DNA from: a bacterium
GTDB lineage: Bacteria; Campylobacterota; Campylobacteria; Campylobacterales; Arcobacteraceae
Length of the DNA: 32,377 bases
Direction: 5' to 3'
NCBI GenBank assembly: GCA_018816105.1
Contig: JAHIWE010000040.1
Span: 1-32,377 of the forward strand
The notes beneath the pieces are model-generated. The model had not been told where the DNA came from, made no database searches, and saw nothing but the letters and a program-made list of their open reading frames with translations. Numbering within the stretch: position 1 is the stretch's first letter; each line of letters opens with the position of its first letter. Positions 19,164-27,678 of the stretch are shown piece by piece. The position numbers and the translations under genes were made by a program.

Positions 19164-20000
19164 TTATTTAACGTATTGATGTAGTTTAGAGCATTTACCT
19201 AAAAATGTATCCATTCCACACATATCATTGAATATATCATCAAATGAGTGTGAGTGAGCATCATAAACATATACAAAAATTTCATCACCTTTTTGTACAA
19301 AATTTTTCTTACCAAAATCAGCATAAGCAGTAGCACCTGCTGCTATTAAAATACCTTTTGCATCTTTTGCTGCAACTTTTAAAAATTGTGTTAATTCTTC
19401 TAATGGACCGCAATCTTCTTGAGTATTTAATTTTTCAATCATCCAATCTTTTAATTGGTCAAAAAAGTAACTATATGATTTTACAGCACTTGTTGTTCCA
19501 TAATCATGAACTATTCCATTTCTTTTAATAAATGAAGCAATGTGATATCTACTTAAAACACCTTTTTGTGTAAAGTTATCAATTTCTATAATTTCTTGAG
19601 AAATTCCTTTTGTATTAGGTCCCCAATTTTTCTTAGTACTTAATTTATTTCCATCTTGAATTCTTATTGAGAAATCATTAAATGCAGAAAAATATCTAGG
19701 AATAATATCAATAACTTTTTCATTTTCATATACAAAATCACAAATTAGTGCAACTTCTGCTTCAACTTGAAGATTATCTTTTTCTCTTCCATGAGTTTCA
19801 ATAATATCTTCACAAATAGGATAAGTTCCTAAAAAACTATTATGTTCTTTTATATAAAAAGGGAACATCCCTTTTGGTGCATTTTTTTCTTCAGTTTTTA
19901 TAACAGAAAATTCGTCAGCTTCTCCAGCCTCACCTAAGTGATTTGCAAAGTTTCCTGCTACTGCAAAGCCTAAATAATCTTTTAAATCCTCTAGTAACAT
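19164..20000 (-). CDS. Conserved protein with fumarylacetoacetate hydrolase-like features
   Basis: The 278-residue product resembles a DUF5718-type conserved protein of Campylobacterota (recalled from memory, not searched). Several segments look like the FAH fold: an ExE metal-binding pair in QVEAEVALICDF (Glu80, Glu82), FNDFSIR (residues 107-113) at the place of the family's NDxSxR motif, and KKNWGPNTKG where FAH proteins have their substrate lysine and GP motif. FAH members cleave or decarboxylate acylpyruvates and oxaloacetate with Mg2+. AGGAATAAAAATG gives the start. It is convergent with the chemoreceptor (19-nt gap) and lies downstream of the fumarase region on the same strand, but a candidate small-RNA gene separates them. 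The function is unproven. Confidence 0.6.
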   Translation of the reverse strand: MLLEDLKDYLGFAVAGNFANHLGEAGEADEFSVIKTEEKNAPKGMFPFYIKEHNSFLGTYPICEDIIETHGREKDNLQVEAEVALICDFVYENEKVIDIIPRYFSAFNDFSIRIQDGNKLSTKKNWGPNTKGISQEIIEIDNFTQKGVLSRYHIASFIKRNGIVHDYGTTSAVKSYSYFFDQLKDWMIEKLNTQEDCGPLEELTQFLKVAAKDAKGILIAAGATAYADFGKKNFVQKGDEIFVYVYDAHSHSFDDIFNDMCGMDTFLGKCSKLHQYVK

Positions 20001-20178: not shown

Positions 20179-21672
20179 TTAAATAGTTCTCCATTTAGCA
20201 GGACCAGTTGTATGAATTGAAACACCTTCAGTGTCAACAGCTACAGTAACTGGCATATCTTCTACATCAAACTCATAAATAGCTTCCATTCCCATTTCTT
20301 CAAATGCAAGAACTTTTGCATCTTTAATTGATTGAGAAATTAAGTATGCTGCTCCTCCTGTTGCAATTAAGTACATAGATTTATATTCTTTAATTAAATC
20401 AATTGTTGGTTGCTTTCTTTCAGCTTTACCAATCATTCCCATGATTCCAATTTCCATCATGTCTTTTGTAAATTTATCCATTCTAGTTGATGTTGTAGGA
20501 CCAGCAGGTCCTACTTTTTCATCTCTAACTGGATCAACAGGTCCAACGTAGTAGATGAATCTATCTTTTAAATCAACACCATTTGGAAGTGGTTTACCAG
20601 CATTTTTGTACTCAACAATTTTTTTATGAGCAGCATCTCTAGCTGTTAAGATTTTTCCAGTTAATAATAGTGTATCACCTGATTTAAATTGAGATAAGTT
20701 TTCTTTTGTTAAATCTGCAATATTTACTTTTTTAATAGAATCTAATGGTAATTTTACATCTGGCCATAAATCTAAATTTGGTTTTTTAAATTTAGCTACA
20801 CCTTCTCCTGCTTTTAATTTAAAGTGAATATGTCTAGTAGCAGCACAGTTAGGAATCATAGCAACAGGAAGTGAAGCAGCGTGACATGGGTAATCTAAAA
20901 TTTTAACATCAACAACAGTTGTTAATCCTCCAAGACCTTGTGCCCCAATTCCAACTTTATTAATATCAGTATAAAGTCTTAATCTTAATTCTTCTAAGGC
21001 ATTTTGAGGGCCTCTTGCTTGTAATTCATGAATATCAACATGCCCCATTAAAGACTCTTTTGCAAGAAGCATTGCTTTTTCTGGATTTCCACCAATACCA
21101 ATACCTAATATTCCAGGAGGACACCAACCAGCTCCCATTTCTCTAACATTTGCCATAACCCAGTCATAAACTGAATCTGATGGATTTAATACAGCAAATT
21201 TAGATTTGTTTTCACTTCCTCCACCTTTTGCAGCAACAGTAATATCTAATTCATCTGAATTATCAACAGTAACATGAATAACCGCTGGAGTATTATCTTT
21301 TGTATTTGTTCTTTTTCCTGCAGGATCAGAAACAACAGAGTATCTTAATGTATTATCAGGATCCGTATAACCTTTTGCTACACCTTTATTTAATACATCT
21401 ATTAATTCTTCTGTTAATTCTAAGTTAGCTTTTAATCCAACTTTAACAAAAATATTTACAGACCCAGTATCTTGACATAAAGGTCTATGACCTAATGCAC
21501 ACATTTTAGAGTTAATTAGAATTTGCCCAATTGCATTTTTAGCAGCTTCTGATTTTTCATTCTCATAAGCTTCAACCATCGCTGTTACGAAATCTTCAGG
21601 GTGAAAATATGAAATGTATTGACATGCATCAGCAATGCTATCGATTATATCTTGTTGTTTTATTACGCTCAT
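20179..21672 (-). CDS. Class I (iron-sulfur) fumarate hydratase, possible mesaconase
   Basis: The 497-residue product is a class I, oxygen-sensitive [4Fe-4S] hydratase with the fused alpha and beta parts of FumA/tartrate dehydratase. The three cluster cysteines are Cys66 (RPLCQDTG), Cys184 (GAGWCPPGILGIGIGG) and Cys276 (NCAATRH). The C-terminal part has LLLTGKILTARDAAH and the YYVGPVDPVRDEKVGPAGPTTS-type segment. The reaction is reversible hydration of fumarate to malate. Some class I enzymes of about this length also hydrate mesaconate to citramalate (mesaconase activity), which fits the neighbouring mesaconyl-CoA genes. GGAAACAA precedes the ATG. It has its own extended -10 promoter and is separated from the operon upstream by 246 nt. 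Whether it is the housekeeping TCA-cycle fumarase cannot be told from one window. Confidence 0.93.
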   Translation of the reverse strand: MSVIKQQDIIDSIADACQYISYFHPEDFVTAMVEAYENEKSEAAKNAIGQILINSKMCALGHRPLCQDTGSVNIFVKVGLKANLELTEELIDVLNKGVAKGYTDPDNTLRYSVVSDPAGKRTNTKDNTPAVIHVTVDNSDELDITVAAKGGGSENKSKFAVLNPSDSVYDWVMANVREMGAGWCPPGILGIGIGGNPEKAMLLAKESLMGHVDIHELQARGPQNALEELRLRLYTDINKVGIGAQGLGGLTTVVDVKILDYPCHAASLPVAMIPNCAATRHIHFKLKAGEGVAKFKKPNLDLWPDVKLPLDSIKKVNIADLTKENLSQFKSGDTLLLTGKILTARDAAHKKIVEYKNAGKPLPNGVDLKDRFIYYVGPVDPVRDEKVGPAGPTTSTRMDKFTKDMMEIGIMGMIGKAERKQPTIDLIKEYKSMYLIATGGAAYLISQSIKDAKVLAFEEMGMEAIYEFDVEDMPVTVAVDTEGVSIHTTGPAKWRTI

Positions 21673-21918: not shown

Positions 21919-22902
21919 TTATGAGAAGAATCTTGTTTCAACAATATCTTGTAATTTAGTTCCAGAGAATTTTGCTCTTTGAACTAGTTCCCAGAAATAT
22001 CTGTACGTTGCTCTATCGTGTAATTCACCATCATATTGAATTGGTCCCCACTCAGCATCTTGAGCAGCAATTAAAATATTTTGAGCAGCTTCTAATTCTG
22101 TAAAGTCAGGTTTCATTGCATCAACAATAGCTTGAACTTGAGTTGGGTAAATTGACCACATTCTCATGAATCCGAACTCATTTCTTGCTTTTTCAGCATC
22201 TTTATAAGTTTGGTATGGGTTTTTTAAATCAAGTGTAACATTGTGTGCAGGAATAATGTGATTAGAAAGAGCAGCTTGAACAACTTTTGCTTTAGCAGCA
22301 GCAATTAATCTATGTTCAAATTGACCTGGACTTCTCATATTTGAAGCAGGAATAGCACCTTGGTAACCAGAAACGAAGTCCATTAATCCAAAGTCTAATA
22401 CTTGTACCCAAGGTAGTGTTGCAGTTTTTTCAACATCTCTTAAAGCACCATGTGTTTCAATTAAAACGTGAATTGGAATTTCTCTTGTAATTCCAGCTTT
22501 TCTTGCAGTTTCTTGAATATATTCAACTTGAGTTTTTGCATCTTCGTAAGAAGTTGATTTAGGAATAGTAATATATGCTAATTTCTCACCAGCACCTGGT
22601 ACTAAAATATCAATATCTTGTCTCCAATCTGGATGGTCAAAATCATGAATTCTAGTTCCGGCCATTCCATAAGGATTAGCATCAGAATTAACAACTCTTA
22701 CGATCATTTCAGCATGTGCAACTTCTTTACCAGTTTCAGCTCCATCTTCACAGTCACAAGTAATATCAAAAACAGGTCCTAATTTTTTTTGCATCTCAAA
22801 ACCTTTTAAGATTAGCTTTTCGCTACCTGCAAAGTGTTCACAAGATGGAATGATTGGTAAGTTATCTCCAGAACCGAATAGTGCTTCATTTGGGTGTGTC
22901 AT
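21919..22902 (-). CDS. mcl: Malyl-CoA/beta-methylmalyl-CoA lyase (CitE superfamily)
   Basis: The 327-residue product is a CitE/HpcH-like TIM-barrel lyase that cleaves or forms 3-hydroxyacyl-CoA diacids using Mg2+. The acidic motif DCEDG (residues 50-54), an arginine in AGTRIHDFDHPDW (Arg84), the metal ligands Glu149 (VLIETHG) and Asp175 (GLMDFVSGY) are all present, so it should be active. Family enzymes interconvert malyl-CoA with acetyl-CoA plus glyoxylate, and beta-methylmalyl-CoA with propionyl-CoA plus glyoxylate. Its position 29 nt after a mesaconyl-CoA hydratase gene favours the methylmalyl-CoA reaction. AAAGGATATTAT gives the ribosome binding site. It is the last gene of the operon. 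Citramalyl-CoA cleavage is an alternative. Confidence 0.82.
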   Translation of the reverse strand: MTHPNEALFGSGDNLPIIPSCEHFAGSEKLILKGFEMQKKLGPVFDITCDCEDGAETGKEVAHAEMIVRVVNSDANPYGMAGTRIHDFDHPDWRQDIDILVPGAGEKLAYITIPKSTSYEDAKTQVEYIQETARKAGITREIPIHVLIETHGALRDVEKTATLPWVQVLDFGLMDFVSGYQGAIPASNMRSPGQFEHRLIAAAKAKVVQAALSNHIIPAHNVTLDLKNPYQTYKDAEKARNEFGFMRMWSIYPTQVQAIVDAMKPDFTELEAAQNILIAAQDAEWGPIQYDGELHDRATYRYFWELVQRAKFSGTKLQDIVETRFFS

Positions 22903-22931: not shown

Positions 22932-24002
22932 TTATTTTTTTGTTTTGTTTTTTGGGATTACAACAGTGTAATCTAAGTCAAGTACAACATTCGGTAAATA
23001 TTTACCTTCTGAATCTTTTGGATTAAGGATTTCTTTAGAAACTTGGTTTTTAATTCCAACTGTTCTAAGTCTTAATAATCCAATATCATCTCTACCTACT
23101 TCAATTGTTTCAACAATTTCAGTATATGCATAAATTGTATCACCAGCATATGTAGGGTTTGCGTGAGCTCCACTATTAATAGCGTATACCCATTGTGCAT
23201 TTTGTAAACCATTAAAAGAAATAGCTCTCGCCATTGAAATAATGATTCCACCATACATAAGTCTTTGACCCATTGGTGTACTTTTCATCATATGGTCATT
23301 GAAGTGAACTTTAGCATTGTTTTGATATAGCTTTGTTGCTAAAGTATGATCACTATTATCAATAGTAATACCTTCAGGATGATTTAATCTCTCACCTGCA
23401 ACATAATCTTCAAAGAAATATTTTCCACCAGTTGAATCTGTATTTACAGCTTTAATTGTTGGAATATTTATAACATCTGCAATAGGTGTAGTTTTTGCAA
23501 AAGTAGGAACTTCATTTATGCCGCTTGTAGTTTCCTTATCTTTTTTATGAACCATTACCCATCTTTTAAAGTCAAGAACAACAGCGTCATTTTGGTTTAC
23601 ACCAATAGAGTGAACATAAACAACTCCACTTTTACCATTTGAATTTTCTTTTAATCCAATAACAGTAGAAGTCATAGAAACTGTATCTCCAACAAAAACA
23701 GAATTAGGAAAAGACATTTCAGCGTATCCTAAATTTGCAATTGCATTTAAAGATACATCTTGAACAGATTTTCCAAATGTTAAGTGAAACATTAACATAT
23801 CATCAATTGGTTTTTTAGCATAACCCATTTCCTTTGCAACTACATCCGAAGAGTGTAGTGCAAATCTAGAACCAGTAAAAGCAATGTATAAAGATACATC
23901 ACCATCACTTATTGTTCTTGGAAGGGGGTGAACAATTTTTTGTCCAATTGAGAAATCTTCAAAAAAATTACCGAAATTAATTTTAGTACTTATGTTAGAC
24001 AA
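22932..24002 (-). CDS. mch: Mesaconyl-CoA hydratase (double hot-dog, MaoC-like)
   Basis: The 356-residue product has two MaoC-like hot-dog halves: residues 10-155, and from FFEDYVAGERLNHPEG at 196 to the end. The N-terminal half carries sequence I recognise from mesaconyl-CoA hydratases of the ethylmalonyl-CoA pathway: GDVSLYIAFTGSRFALHSSD (34-53), FGKSVQDVSLNAIANLGYAE (76-95), IGLKENSNGKSGVVYV and VLDFKRWVMV. The enzyme interconverts mesaconyl-C1-CoA and beta-methylmalyl-CoA in the cytoplasm. The start is TTG at 24002, with GGAG six bases upstream, only 10 nt after the ligase-fusion gene. The downstream lyase would act on its product. An itaconyl-CoA hydratase-like role is less likely given length and motifs. 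Confidence 0.85.
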   Translation of the reverse strand: MSNISTKINFGNFFEDFSIGQKIVHPLPRTISDGDVSLYIAFTGSRFALHSSDVVAKEMGYAKKPIDDMLMFHLTFGKSVQDVSLNAIANLGYAEMSFPNSVFVGDTVSMTSTVIGLKENSNGKSGVVYVHSIGVNQNDAVVLDFKRWVMVHKKDKETTSGINEVPTFAKTTPIADVINIPTIKAVNTDSTGGKYFFEDYVAGERLNHPEGITIDNSDHTLATKLYQNNAKVHFNDHMMKSTPMGQRLMYGGIIISMARAISFNGLQNAQWVYAINSGAHANPTYAGDTIYAYTEIVETIEVGRDDIGLLRLRTVGIKNQVSKEILNPKDSEGKYLPNVVLDLDYTVVIPKNKTKK

Positions 24003-24012
24003 TTTTATCTCC

Positions 24013-26532
24013 TTATTTATTAAATAGGTTTTGACCTAATGATTTATATGTTTCATATAATGTAATCATTTTTTTAGCCCATTTAATTCTTGAAGAATCT
24101 ACAAGTCTATCATTATGTAATATTACTTCTTTACCATCTTTTACTGCATCTTCATAAGATGCAATCATTTTTTCATAATCTTCAACTTCAGCTTGTTTTG
24201 GAGTAAAGATATCATTAATATATTCAATTTGAACAGGATGGATAAGTGATTTACCATCGTATCCTAAATTAAATGCATCTTTAGTTGAATCTTCACAAGC
24301 AAATTCATCATGAACATCAAAGTGCGGTCCATCAATCACAGTTTTACCATAAGCTTTTGAAGCTAAGGCAATTTGTGATAAATAGTTAAGCATTGCTTTT
24401 GAACCTTTTTTAATATCAATTTGAAGTCTATTTGCAAGTTTATTAGATCCAACAACTACAACTTCAACTTTTGTTGATGCTGCACAAATTTCTTGAATAT
24501 TTAAAACTGCCAATGGAGTTTCAATCATAATCATTAAAGATAAATTAGGATTTACTTCTTCTAGTAATCTAACTGCTTCTAAAACATCCTCTTTTGTTTG
24601 AATTTTAGAGAATAATAAAGCATCAAGTTCGATTGTTTTAGCAAGTTCTAAATCTTTTGCTAAATCTTCACTACCAAGATTATTAATTCTTAAAACTCTT
24701 TCTGATTCACCAAATTTAGCTCCATCTTCTTTATAAACTTCAGCAACTGTTGATCTTCCTAATTCTCTTTGCTCTTGTAAAATTGCTTCAAGATCAAAAA
24801 TCACTGCATCAGCAAGTACAGTTTTTGCTTTTTGTACATTGTGTTTATTATAAGAAGGAATAAATAGCATAGATCTTCTTGCTTTATATTCAACCACTTC
24901 AGTTCCTGTTTCAATTGCATGATGTTGTGCATGTAATTGTTTAACAAGTTGTTTTCTTAAAACTTTTCCATTTTTAGTTCTTGGATAATCAAGCATTGCA
25001 AAGATCTCTTTTGGAGCTTTGTATTTTGCAAGATTAGCTTGAGCAAATGCTAAAACTTCTGCTTGTTTTTCTACTGATAATTCTTCATGTCCAATAACTG
25101 CAATTGCAACTATCGTTTTATCTTTACCAATATCTAAACCAAAAGCAACACAATCTGCAACTGCATCATGAGTTTTCACAACTCTTTCGATTTCGTGTGG
25201 AGATACTCTAAATCCAAAAGTATTGATAATATCATCTTTTCTACCTATGAACCAAATATATCCATCTTCATCCTTTTTAGCATAATCACCTGTAAAGAAG
25301 TATCCATCATGTCTTGATTTTGTAGTTTCTTCTTCTAATTGCCAATACTCTAAGAATAAACCTGGATCATCTTCCCCAATACAAATCATACCTTCTTCAC
25401 CATCTTCAACTTCTTCTAAAGTATCAGGGTCAAGTAGTTTTACCGTATGTCCTGGTTGTACGAATCCTGCACTTCCTGGTCTTATTGGGTTATTTTTAGA
25501 GTGAGAAATATAATAAGAACATTCACTCATTCCGATTGCTTCATAAATATCTTGTTTGAATTTTTCTCTCCAAAGTCCAAGCATTTCATCTGATAAATGC
25601 TCACCTGCACTCATACAATATCTTAAACTAGGGCAATCAGCTAAAGTGAAATCTGTTTTTTGAATAATTTGTCTATAAATTGTTGGAACTCCAATAAATA
25701 TAGTACATTGGTGTTTTTTAATTAAATTAATCCAAGTTGAAGCATCATTTGAACCTTCATAAGCAATAACAGTATGACCATTAAATAATGGATCCATTAA
25801 AGCAGAACCTAAAACATAGGTCCAGTTAAATTTACCAGAGTGCATAATTCTATCATTATCTTTAAAATCAAACCAATATTGAGTTGCTGGAGTTCTACCA
25901 ACTAATGATCTATGTGAATGTAAAACACCTTTTGGATAACCAGTTGTTCCTGATGTATATACTAAATAAGCTGGCTCACCTGATTTTGAATTATAATGAT
26001 TAGCTTTAGTATCAGTTGTTTTAAAAATTTCACTCAAAGAGTATACATTTATACCTTTTGGTTTTTTTAATTCATCAACATTATCAATTCCAGCAACAAC
26101 AATTGTTTTTAAATTATCAAGGTTTTCTAAGTATGGAAGTAAATTTTCATACATAGAAGCTGATAATACAATTGCTCTTGCTTGTGAATCTTCAGCTAGA
26201 TATTTAACTTCGCTACCACTTAAAAGTGTAGAGGTAGGAACTGCAATAATTCCAGCCTTCATTGTTCCAAAAAACGAAATAGGATAAGCTAAAGAGTTTT
26301 TTAAACAAACTAGAACTCTATCCCTAGCTTCTAGACCAATACCAGTAAAGAAATTACATACTTGATCAGATTTAGTAGCTAAATCTTTATAAGTTATTTC
26401 ATCTGTACCTAATTTATCATCTTCGATAATCATAGCAATACTGTTCTCTTTAGGTGTTCCCACATGAGCAGATGTACAAGCAACTCCGATGTTTAAAAAT
26501 TCAGGTATTTCAATTTTTACGTTTGAACTCAT
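24013..26532 (-). CDS. Acyl-CoA synthetase fused to a degenerate CitE-like domain
   Basis: The 839-residue product joins two enzymes. Residues 1-535 are an AMP-forming acyl-CoA synthetase of the benzoate/medium-chain ligase type, with P-loop YTSGTTGYPKG (192-202), MSECSYY (335-341), TGD (414-416), the hinge GRKDDIINTFGFRVSP and catalytic Lys523 in NGKVLRK. Residues 551-839 are a CitE/malyl-CoA lyase-like barrel (RRSMLFIPSYNKHN, LRINNLG with Arg615, MIETPLAVLN with Glu671). Two conserved acidic residues are missing: DLED is DLEA at 580-583, and the metal-binding Asp of the G-x-x-D-L motif is Lys698 (GSNKL). The lyase half may therefore be inactive, altered or regulatory. The ligase half probably activates a C4-C5 dicarboxylate such as mesaconate; this is inferred from neighbours. 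GGGAG precedes the ATG, 15 nt after the previous gene. Confidence 0.85.
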   Translation of the reverse strand: MSSNVKIEIPEFLNIGVACTSAHVGTPKENSIAMIIEDDKLGTDEITYKDLATKSDQVCNFFTGIGLEARDRVLVCLKNSLAYPISFFGTMKAGIIAVPTSTLLSGSEVKYLAEDSQARAIVLSASMYENLLPYLENLDNLKTIVVAGIDNVDELKKPKGINVYSLSEIFKTTDTKANHYNSKSGEPAYLVYTSGTTGYPKGVLHSHRSLVGRTPATQYWFDFKDNDRIMHSGKFNWTYVLGSALMDPLFNGHTVIAYEGSNDASTWINLIKKHQCTIFIGVPTIYRQIIQKTDFTLADCPSLRYCMSAGEHLSDEMLGLWREKFKQDIYEAIGMSECSYYISHSKNNPIRPGSAGFVQPGHTVKLLDPDTLEEVEDGEEGMICIGEDDPGLFLEYWQLEEETTKSRHDGYFFTGDYAKKDEDGYIWFIGRKDDIINTFGFRVSPHEIERVVKTHDAVADCVAFGLDIGKDKTIVAIAVIGHEELSVEKQAEVLAFAQANLAKYKAPKEIFAMLDYPRTKNGKVLRKQLVKQLHAQHHAIETGTEVVEYKARRSMLFIPSYNKHNVQKAKTVLADAVIFDLEAILQEQRELGRSTVAEVYKEDGAKFGESERVLRINNLGSEDLAKDLELAKTIELDALLFSKIQTKEDVLEAVRLLEEVNPNLSLMIMIETPLAVLNIQEICAASTKVEVVVVGSNKLANRLQIDIKKGSKAMLNYLSQIALASKAYGKTVIDGPHFDVHDEFACEDSTKDAFNLGYDGKSLIHPVQIEYINDIFTPKQAEVEDYEKMIASYEDAVKDGKEVILHNDRLVDSSRIKWAKKMITLYETYKSLGQNLFNK

Positions 26533-26547
26533 AGTATAATCTCCCTA

Positions 26548-27678
26548 CTAAATTTGACCGTAAGGCCAGTTTTCTTTAAATGTATGAATTGGCATTCTGT
26601 TTAATACAGATAATGCAAATATCTCATCCTCTTTTGCTAAAGATCTTAATGCATAAGCTCTTAAAATATTTTGTAAAGATTTACCAAACATTGGTGGATC
26701 TAACATTTCACCTTCATATCTAATTGCACCAGATAATAAAGCATCAGCTTCAATAGCAGCTTTTAAGATTCTTACATCTTTTTCAATCTCTTTTGGAGAA
26801 GGAGTAAATGCAACTTTACATACATTAATATGATTTGGAGTAATAACTTGTTTACCTGTTAATCCCATTGCATTTTCTCTAATTGCATGAGCATAAACAT
26901 GTCTAGAAGCATCATCACCATGTAAATCTAACCATCTTCTAATATCTTTTTTCTCAACACAAGAATCAGGTAATGAATGTGGTGTTAACATAACTTCAAC
27001 TCCACCAATAACCCCTTTACCTTTAACTCTAGCTTCCATAGTAAGCATATTAAAGAAAGTTTCTAACTCATCAATCCAACCTTGAGGAGTGATTTTGTAA
27101 GCCATAGCTTTTGAAAAGTCATGGATACCAAATACAACGTGTTTAACAGTTGAATGTTCCATTAATCTATCAGCAATCTGTAAAGATTTTGGATGCTCGA
27201 TAATTGGTTGAATTGTTAAATTACTTCCAATTGAAATTAACCAAGATGATAAGTCTCTAATTTCAGCAGACCCATAAACTTCTCCCGCTTTTGCTAATAC
27301 AATTACATCAATATATTGATGAATTTGTTTTAACATTTTTAAATCTTCCTCATACTCATCTGTTCTAAATGGGTTGATTCTAACAGCTATTTGGAAAGTT
27401 CTTTCTGGAAACTTTGGTAACTCTTGAATTAAAAGTTCTCTTGACATTGCTTTTTGTCTACAACCATCTTCTAAGTCAAATAAAACAGTATGTGCTTTTG
27501 TTTTATATGCGTGTTTTTGTAGTCTTAGCTTTGCTTGTTCCATACTCTCATATGTTCCATCTAATGGATTAAATTTAATTGGTGGGTAATAAATTTGAAT
27601 ACCAGGCCAATATCCACCAAGAACTGGTGTTAAATCATCATTTGCTGTTAATTTAGATAAATCTATTGCAGAAGTCAT
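26548..27678 (-). CDS. CitE/HpcH-HpaI-superfamily protein, lyase or thioesterase
   Basis: The 376-residue product is a longer CitE-like barrel and the first gene of the four-gene operon. It keeps the catalytic set: DLEDG at 68-72, Arg100 in AVRIN, Glu161 in PIIEHP and Asp187 in VFGIHDFSKA. A distinctive N-terminal extension (GGYWPGIQIYYPPIKFNPLDG, residues 21-41) and a C-terminal segment of about 90 residues after ITPNHINVCKVAF set it apart from the 327-residue lyase downstream. Possible roles are a second lyase of different specificity (citramalyl-CoA or malyl-CoA) or a malyl-CoA thioesterase, both known in this superfamily. AAAGGTAG upstream gives the start. Confidence 0.72.
   Translation of the reverse strand: MTSAIDLSKLTANDDLTPVLGGYWPGIQIYYPPIKFNPLDGTYESMEQAKLRLQKHAYKTKAHTVLFDLEDGCRQKAMSRELLIQELPKFPERTFQIAVRINPFRTDEYEEDLKMLKQIHQYIDVIVLAKAGEVYGSAEIRDLSSWLISIGSNLTIQPIIEHPKSLQIADRLMEHSTVKHVVFGIHDFSKAMAYKITPQGWIDELETFFNMLTMEARVKGKGVIGGVEVMLTPHSLPDSCVEKKDIRRWLDLHGDDASRHVYAHAIRENAMGLTGKQVITPNHINVCKVAFTPSPKEIEKDVRILKAAIEADALLSGAIRYEGEMLDPPMFGKSLQNILRAYALRSLAKEDEIFALSVLNRMPIHTFKENWPYGQI

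Follow-up and report, generated by a model that had tools for sequence, protein, structure and literature searches.

The analysed window, a stretch of 32,377 nucleotides from a member of the Arcobacteraceae, carries on its minus strand a gene cluster which encodes, in this order, the CitE-like protein CitE376, a fusion protein, a MaoC-type hydratase, the CitE-like protein CitE327 and a class I fumarase. The fusion protein comprises 839 amino acids, is encoded at 26532-24013 (-) in an unbroken frame with no frameshift, and joins an AMP-forming CoA ligase in its N-terminal half to a CitE/malyl-CoA-lyase domain in its C-terminal half. The features are listed below. Counts refer to 42 distinct fusions, which stem from separate genomes of two Campylobacterota families, and residue equivalences are based on an alignment of the lyase domain with the malyl-CoA lyase of R. 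sphaeroides (MCLR) and human CLYBL.

26548..27678, minus strand: CitE376, separate CitE-like lyase, first gene of the cluster, catalytic residues intact
24943..26532, minus strand: AMP-forming acyl-CoA ligase domain, residues 1-530 of the fusion (PF00501 6e-72, PF13193; motifs intact)
24898..24942, minus strand: variable linker, residues 531-545 (58% mean identity vs 82-86% in both domains, 28 rows)
24016..24897, minus strand: degenerate CitE/malyl-CoA-lyase-fold domain, residues 546-839 (PF03328 1.1e-31; AlphaFold; structure comparison)
24784..24795, minus strand: D580-L581-E582-A583, DLED motif minus one acid (codons gat ctt gaa gca)
24688..24690, minus strand: R615, Arg76 equivalent, kept (R40, K2 in 42 fusions; alignment)
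24520..24522, minus strand: E671, equivalent of the Mg ligand Glu141, kept in 42/42 (alignment)
24439..24441, minus strand: K698 at the position of the Mg ligand Asp168 (codon aaa; K30, N5, T5, S1, A1, never D in 42 fusions)
24097..24099, minus strand: D812, equivalent of the lid residue Asp299, kept in 42/42 (alignment)
22932..24002, minus strand: tandem MaoC/hot-dog hydratase of the mesaconyl-CoA hydratase (beta-methylmalyl-CoA dehydratase) type (PF19315 2e-20; PDB matches)
21919..22902, minus strand: CitE327, separate CitE-like lyase, catalytic residues intact (PDB 3qqw 1.4e-139, 3r4i 1.3e-101)
20179..21672, minus strand: class I fumarase, possible mesaconase (profile match; neighbourhoods)

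The N-terminal half of the fusion harbors the AMP-binding (residues 42-397) and AMP-binding_C (447-523) domains of Pfam together with the P-loop and the catalytic lysine of AMP-forming acyl-CoA ligases (motifs YTSGTTGYPKG, GMSE, RKDD and PRTKNGK), which are retained in all 42 fusions apart from conservative Y/F and R/K exchanges; its nearest solved structure is 3etc (E 6.4e-58). The C-terminal half matches HpcH_HpaI (553-766) with 110 bits, compared to a Pfam cut-off of 25, and thus belongs by sequence to the CitE-like superfamily. An AlphaFold model of this domain alone, calculated as a metal-free monomer (pLDDT 90, pTM 0.86), predicts the TIM barrel and the C-terminal lid of the superfamily, and it aligns over 282-288 residues, lid included, with CLYBL and malyl-CoA lyases at Z scores of about 31-34, among them 33.8 for CLYBL and 33.7 for Mcl (5ugr). 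The model of the full-length fusion (pTM 0.57) is too weak for placing the two halves relative to each other.

In the malyl-CoA lyase of R. sphaeroides, Mg is bound by Glu141 and Asp168, two Mg waters are held by Glu44 and Asp45, and Arg76 and Asp299 of the lid are catalytic, with Asp42 positioning the arginine; the metal and second-shell residues were described as absolutely conserved, both across the CitE-like superfamily and among malate synthases (Zarzycki and Kerfeld, PMC3832036). As the initial annotation had noted, the fused domain keeps the arginine and the first metal-binding glutamate, and it also keeps the lid aspartate. The annotation was equally right in placing Lys698 (aaa, 24441-24439) at the second metal-binding aspartate, i.e. 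Asp168. The pair of Mg ligands is broken in every fusion. Aspartate occupies this position in 28/28 comparison homologues (CLYBL, Mcl, RipC and 25 gammaproteobacterial proteins), all of which have an intact DLED as well. The lysine is not fixed, and since residue 698 varies between K, N, T, S and A, the aspartate has no single replacement residue, while the preceding residues G695-S696-N697 (context G695-S-N-K698) are invariant among the fusions.

The second reported change, DLEA for DLED at residues 580-583, holds for the residues and the codons but not as a plain Asp-to-Ala substitution. At this site the fused domains lack one residue (DLE-AILQEQR vs DLEDAVAPDAK), and the alignment indicates a one-codon deletion within DLED, with Ala583 matching the small residue that follows DLED. 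The deleted acid is either Glu44 or Asp45, between which the alignment cannot decide (the sister separate protein reads DLQES), and one fusion additionally lacks Glu582. The alignment with Mcl and CLYBL thereby confirmed the loss of the Asp168 equivalent and of one member of the second-shell pair. D580, the Asp42 equivalent, is invariant in the 42 fusions, as are D734, D739 and H765. Of the acids that might stand in for Asp168, those invariant in the fusions are mostly common to the canonical enzymes; Asp774 is group-specific, though present elsewhere too.

The lyase domain evolves under purifying selection, with dN/dS values of 0.05-0.17, and the pocket segment (residues 691-770; 0.00-0.08 in nine close pairs) is constrained as strongly as the ligase domain (0.06-0.10) or more so. 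From the sequences compared we conclude that the loss of the metal site is a family trait, shared by all relatives recovered from two bacterial lineages.

The second of these lineages is represented by seven gammaproteobacterial genomes, in which the same cluster has one gene for the ligase and another for the CitE-like protein. None of the seven separate proteins is intact at the Glu44/Asp45 position (DLHES twice, DLGAP, ELHEA, DLHRS, DLYES and DLQES), and each carries Gln or Glu in place of the lid aspartate. At the Asp168 position four have Asn and three keep the metal aspartate, and in one protein the arginine is replaced by Gly. The catalytic positions thus differ by lineage (K/N/T/S/A/D; E/H/Y/Q/G/A; D/Q/E), which is the variation expected from lost catalysis.

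In a maximum-likelihood tree, the long branches of which call for caution, the fused domains form one clade (100/100) nested among the separate degenerate proteins, with the separate protein of genome L028 as neighbour (95/87). Because the L028 protein retains the metal aspartate, the loss of this residue requires two changes on the tree. A larger clade (99/96) takes in all degenerate proteins plus one intact protein, G409, and monophyly of the degenerate proteins excluding G409 was neither shown nor rejected (p-AU 0.36). Intact homologues that branch near the degenerate family carry a lid Glu, as is reported for the (3S)-malyl-CoA thioesterase group (Mcl2; PMC3832036); they keep DLED and the metal aspartate, whereas the fused domain has a lid Asp and no metal aspartate. 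G409 (L157:7475-8353), the only intact protein found within the degenerate clade, adjoins genes which, named from sequence, are prpB-, prpC- and prpD-like, i.e. resemble those for methylisocitrate lyase, methylcitrate synthase and PrpD; this neighbourhood hints at an origin of the family in propionate metabolism.

The genome encodes only three HpcH_HpaI proteins, namely the fusion, CitE376 and CitE327. That the latter two are intact, as had been stated initially, applies throughout their families: the metal and acid residues are complete in 51/51 copies of CitE376 and in 49/49 copies of CitE327. CitE376 is present in 38/394 Campylobacterota genomes, all 38 of which also encode the fusion, and in 6/369 gammaproteobacterial genomes, all six of which encode a degenerate protein. 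That the domain is fused to the ligase in one lineage, while its gene adjoins that of the ligase in the other, suggests that the cluster genes are functionally tied. However, the co-occurrence could also mirror the inheritance of the cluster as one unit and does not prove contact between the proteins. Together, the low dN/dS, the invariant pocket segment and the strict co-occurrence with CitE376 support that the domain has retained a selected function. A scan for promoters and terminators returned fewer promoter-like sites than shuffled sequences, and we therefore infer no operon boundary from it.

With respect to the pathway, the MaoC protein matches 4e3e (4.4e-115) and the beta-methylmalyl-CoA dehydratase 8hgn (1.1e-104), in line with a mesaconyl-CoA hydratase (Mch), as expected for a partial 3-hydroxypropionate bi-cycle or mesaconyl-CoA pathway. 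With their intact sites, CitE376 and CitE327 are candidates for the lyase that such a pathway needs for beta-methylmalyl-CoA or citramalyl-CoA. The window's own genome, which is about 92% complete, contains no CoA_transf_3 protein and hence no mesaconyl-CoA isomerase of the Mct type, so that the CoA-moving step is missing. There is likewise no match to malate synthase in this genome, and its one isocitrate-lyase-family match, a short frame of 297 aa, looks like methylisocitrate lyase. The class I fumarase is missing at its position in several related clusters and is thus not part of the core; PF10415 is matched at another locus of the genome by what could be either a class II fumarase or an aspartase, so that this match does not settle whether the cluster fumarase is spare for mesaconate. 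An apparently alternative form of the pathway, lacking CitE376 and CitE327, is found at a related gammaproteobacterial locus in a Chromatiales genome (L029:13363-17576), where the genes near those for ligase and MaoC include one for a mesaconyl-CoA isomerase and three for intact lyases.

Based on the observed residue losses and their conservation, the predicted fold, the purifying selection and the genetic linkage to the ligase, CitE376 and MaoC, we consider it probable, at roughly 60%, that evolution has preserved the C-terminal half as a pseudo-lyase: lacking the Mg site for carbon-carbon cleavage, it would serve the ligase to which it is tied as a non-catalytic partner and probably assemble with CitE376 in a mesaconyl-CoA pathway. 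The pseudo-lyase would have arisen as a separate protein encoded beside the ligase, a state that persists in the Gammaproteobacteria, and would then have been joined to the ligase in the Campylobacterota. The product of the ligase half would be a short-chain acyl-CoA, with mesaconyl-CoA and citramalyl-CoA as the likeliest candidates, although the substrate is a guess. The dead lyase half, in which the arginine of the family, the lid aspartate and one metal glutamate persist along with the fold, would most likely bind CoA thioesters and dock with the intact CitE376, and perhaps with MaoC, thus bringing the ligase and a working lyase side by side. The initial annotation had proposed either a non-catalytic module binding CoA esters and channelling product to the separate lyase or a metal-independent enzyme. 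The non-catalytic part of the former is borne out by the losses in all fusions and separate homologues, the lack of a fixed replacement and the intact neighbouring lyases; CoA-ester binding and channelling, like the formation of a hetero-oligomer, are inferences. Further points speak against the pseudo-lyase reading: the arginine, the lid aspartate and Glu671 are fully or nearly fully kept in the fusions, which exceeds the need of a pure scaffold, and three of the seven separate homologues have the metal aspartate, so that some of them may bind metal.

A wider generalization, which we offer tentatively, is that the CitE-like superfamily includes a subfamily of conserved pseudoenzymes. These would join an AMP-forming CoA ligase to an intact CitE lyase in an obligate complex, in effect a channelling assembly of ligase and lyase built around a dead lyase, and would put their lid or their CoA pocket at the partner's disposal; the metal aspartate would have been lost twice and the fusion formed in the Campylobacterota. 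Somewhat more doubtful is a specific form of the pseudo-lyase reading, according to which the fused domain, its own site being dead, serves in a mixed trimer and supplies the lid, with Asp812, that closes the CitE376 active site. Such a hetero-oligomer is attractive because the lid aspartate is invariant in fusions whose own metal site is gone; Mcl is a hexamer, a dimer of trimers, in which each subunit closes the active site of its neighbour with its lid (PMC3832036), and the linkage with CitE376 is strict. However, CitE376 carries a lid aspartate of its own in 51/51 copies, and the separate gammaproteobacterial proteins have Gln or Glu at this position.

The main rival to the pseudo-lyase reading, in our view unlikely, is a metal-free activity of the fused domain on CoA esters, for example their hydrolysis or a shift of CoA between the carboxyls of mesaconate, by means of the arginine, Glu671, the lid aspartate and His737. 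In its favour are the full or nearly full conservation of R615, E671, D734, D739 and D812 in the fusions, His737, which marks the group (36/41 fusions and 7/7 separate proteins vs 3/28 comparison homologues), the lid Glu of the related intact branch, as in the malyl-CoA thioesterase group, and the missing CoA-moving step. Yet there is no fixed replacement set, given that His737 is Tyr in five fusions, the lid residue is Asp, Glu or Gln and the arginine is Gly in one separate protein, and CoA could be added or removed by the ligase and by thioesterases encoded elsewhere.

An active lyase, in which the metal is held by other residues such as the invariant Asn697, Glu671 and Glu582 or is replaced by a base or cation, appears improbable: the invariant G695-S696-N697, the retained E671 and the intact predicted fold with its lid would agree with it, but the range of residues at 698, the fusion without Glu582 and the different alterations of the second-shell pair in the separate homologues argue against it. 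Single-residue differences can stem from errors, but a sequencing error, or a single strain in which the gene is a pseudogene or drifts under relaxed selection, has next to no probability and is ruled out by the same losses in 42 distinct orthologues from separate genomes and by dN/dS values well below 1, which indicate neither decay nor error.

Known members of the CitE-like superfamily (malyl-CoA lyase 4l9y and 5ugr, human CLYBL 5vxc, citramalyl-CoA lyase 8khl, M. tuberculosis CitE 6aq4) share with the fused domain the predicted TIM barrel with lid (Z about 28-34) and the equivalents of Arg76, Glu141, Asp42 and Asp299; unlike them, the fused domain lacks Asp168 and one of Glu44/Asp45 and is joined to an AMP-forming ligase. 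ATP-citrate lyase is a CoA ligase fused to a lyase that acts on its CoA ester product, and hence resembles the fusion in concept, but its parts are non-homologous and its lyase half is active. The fusion and its cluster are already known from Arcobacter butzleri, where AB1917-AB1921 with the fusion AB1918 were described in 2007 as a CaiC-CitE fusion, two CitE proteins, an enoyl-CoA hydratase and a fumarate hydratase (Miller et al., PMC2147049). The accessible part of that paper regards any of the three CitE proteins, including the fused one, as a possible malyl-CoA lyase and does not mention the lost metal residues; the pathway genes of the present genome fit the proposal made there for A. butzleri. 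In the limited range of sources searched, neither the loss of the metal site in the fusion nor its conservation is described, and we did not find anything on a malyl-CoA lyase pseudoenzyme or on a CitE-like protein, a mesaconyl-CoA hydratase and a CoA ligase together. The subfamily breaks the published rule of absolutely conserved metal residues in two bacterial lineages and is nevertheless strongly selected. The fused lyase of the Arcobacter cluster should therefore not be annotated as malyl-CoA or citrate lyase, and the expected lyase activity would shift to CitE376 or CitE327. The fused and split forms provide a natural pair for testing whether, in central carbon metabolism, a dead enzyme can act as a module for channelling or for assembly.

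Several further features of the locus were observed. CitE327 has RIHD in place of the family RIN in 49/49 copies, and the solved structures of its relatives, 3qqw and 3r4i, were deposited merely as putative citrate lyases. In nearly all Arcobacteraceae loci of sufficient length, the cluster is followed by a DUF5718 gene (window 19164-20000), but none was seen in the clusters of the second Campylobacterota family (f10). Just upstream of the cluster, f10 carries a divergently transcribed regulator-like gene, IclR-like by eye (L095:1695-2414; L091:9676-10395), whereas the window has a dethiobiotin-synthase-like gene at the same spot.
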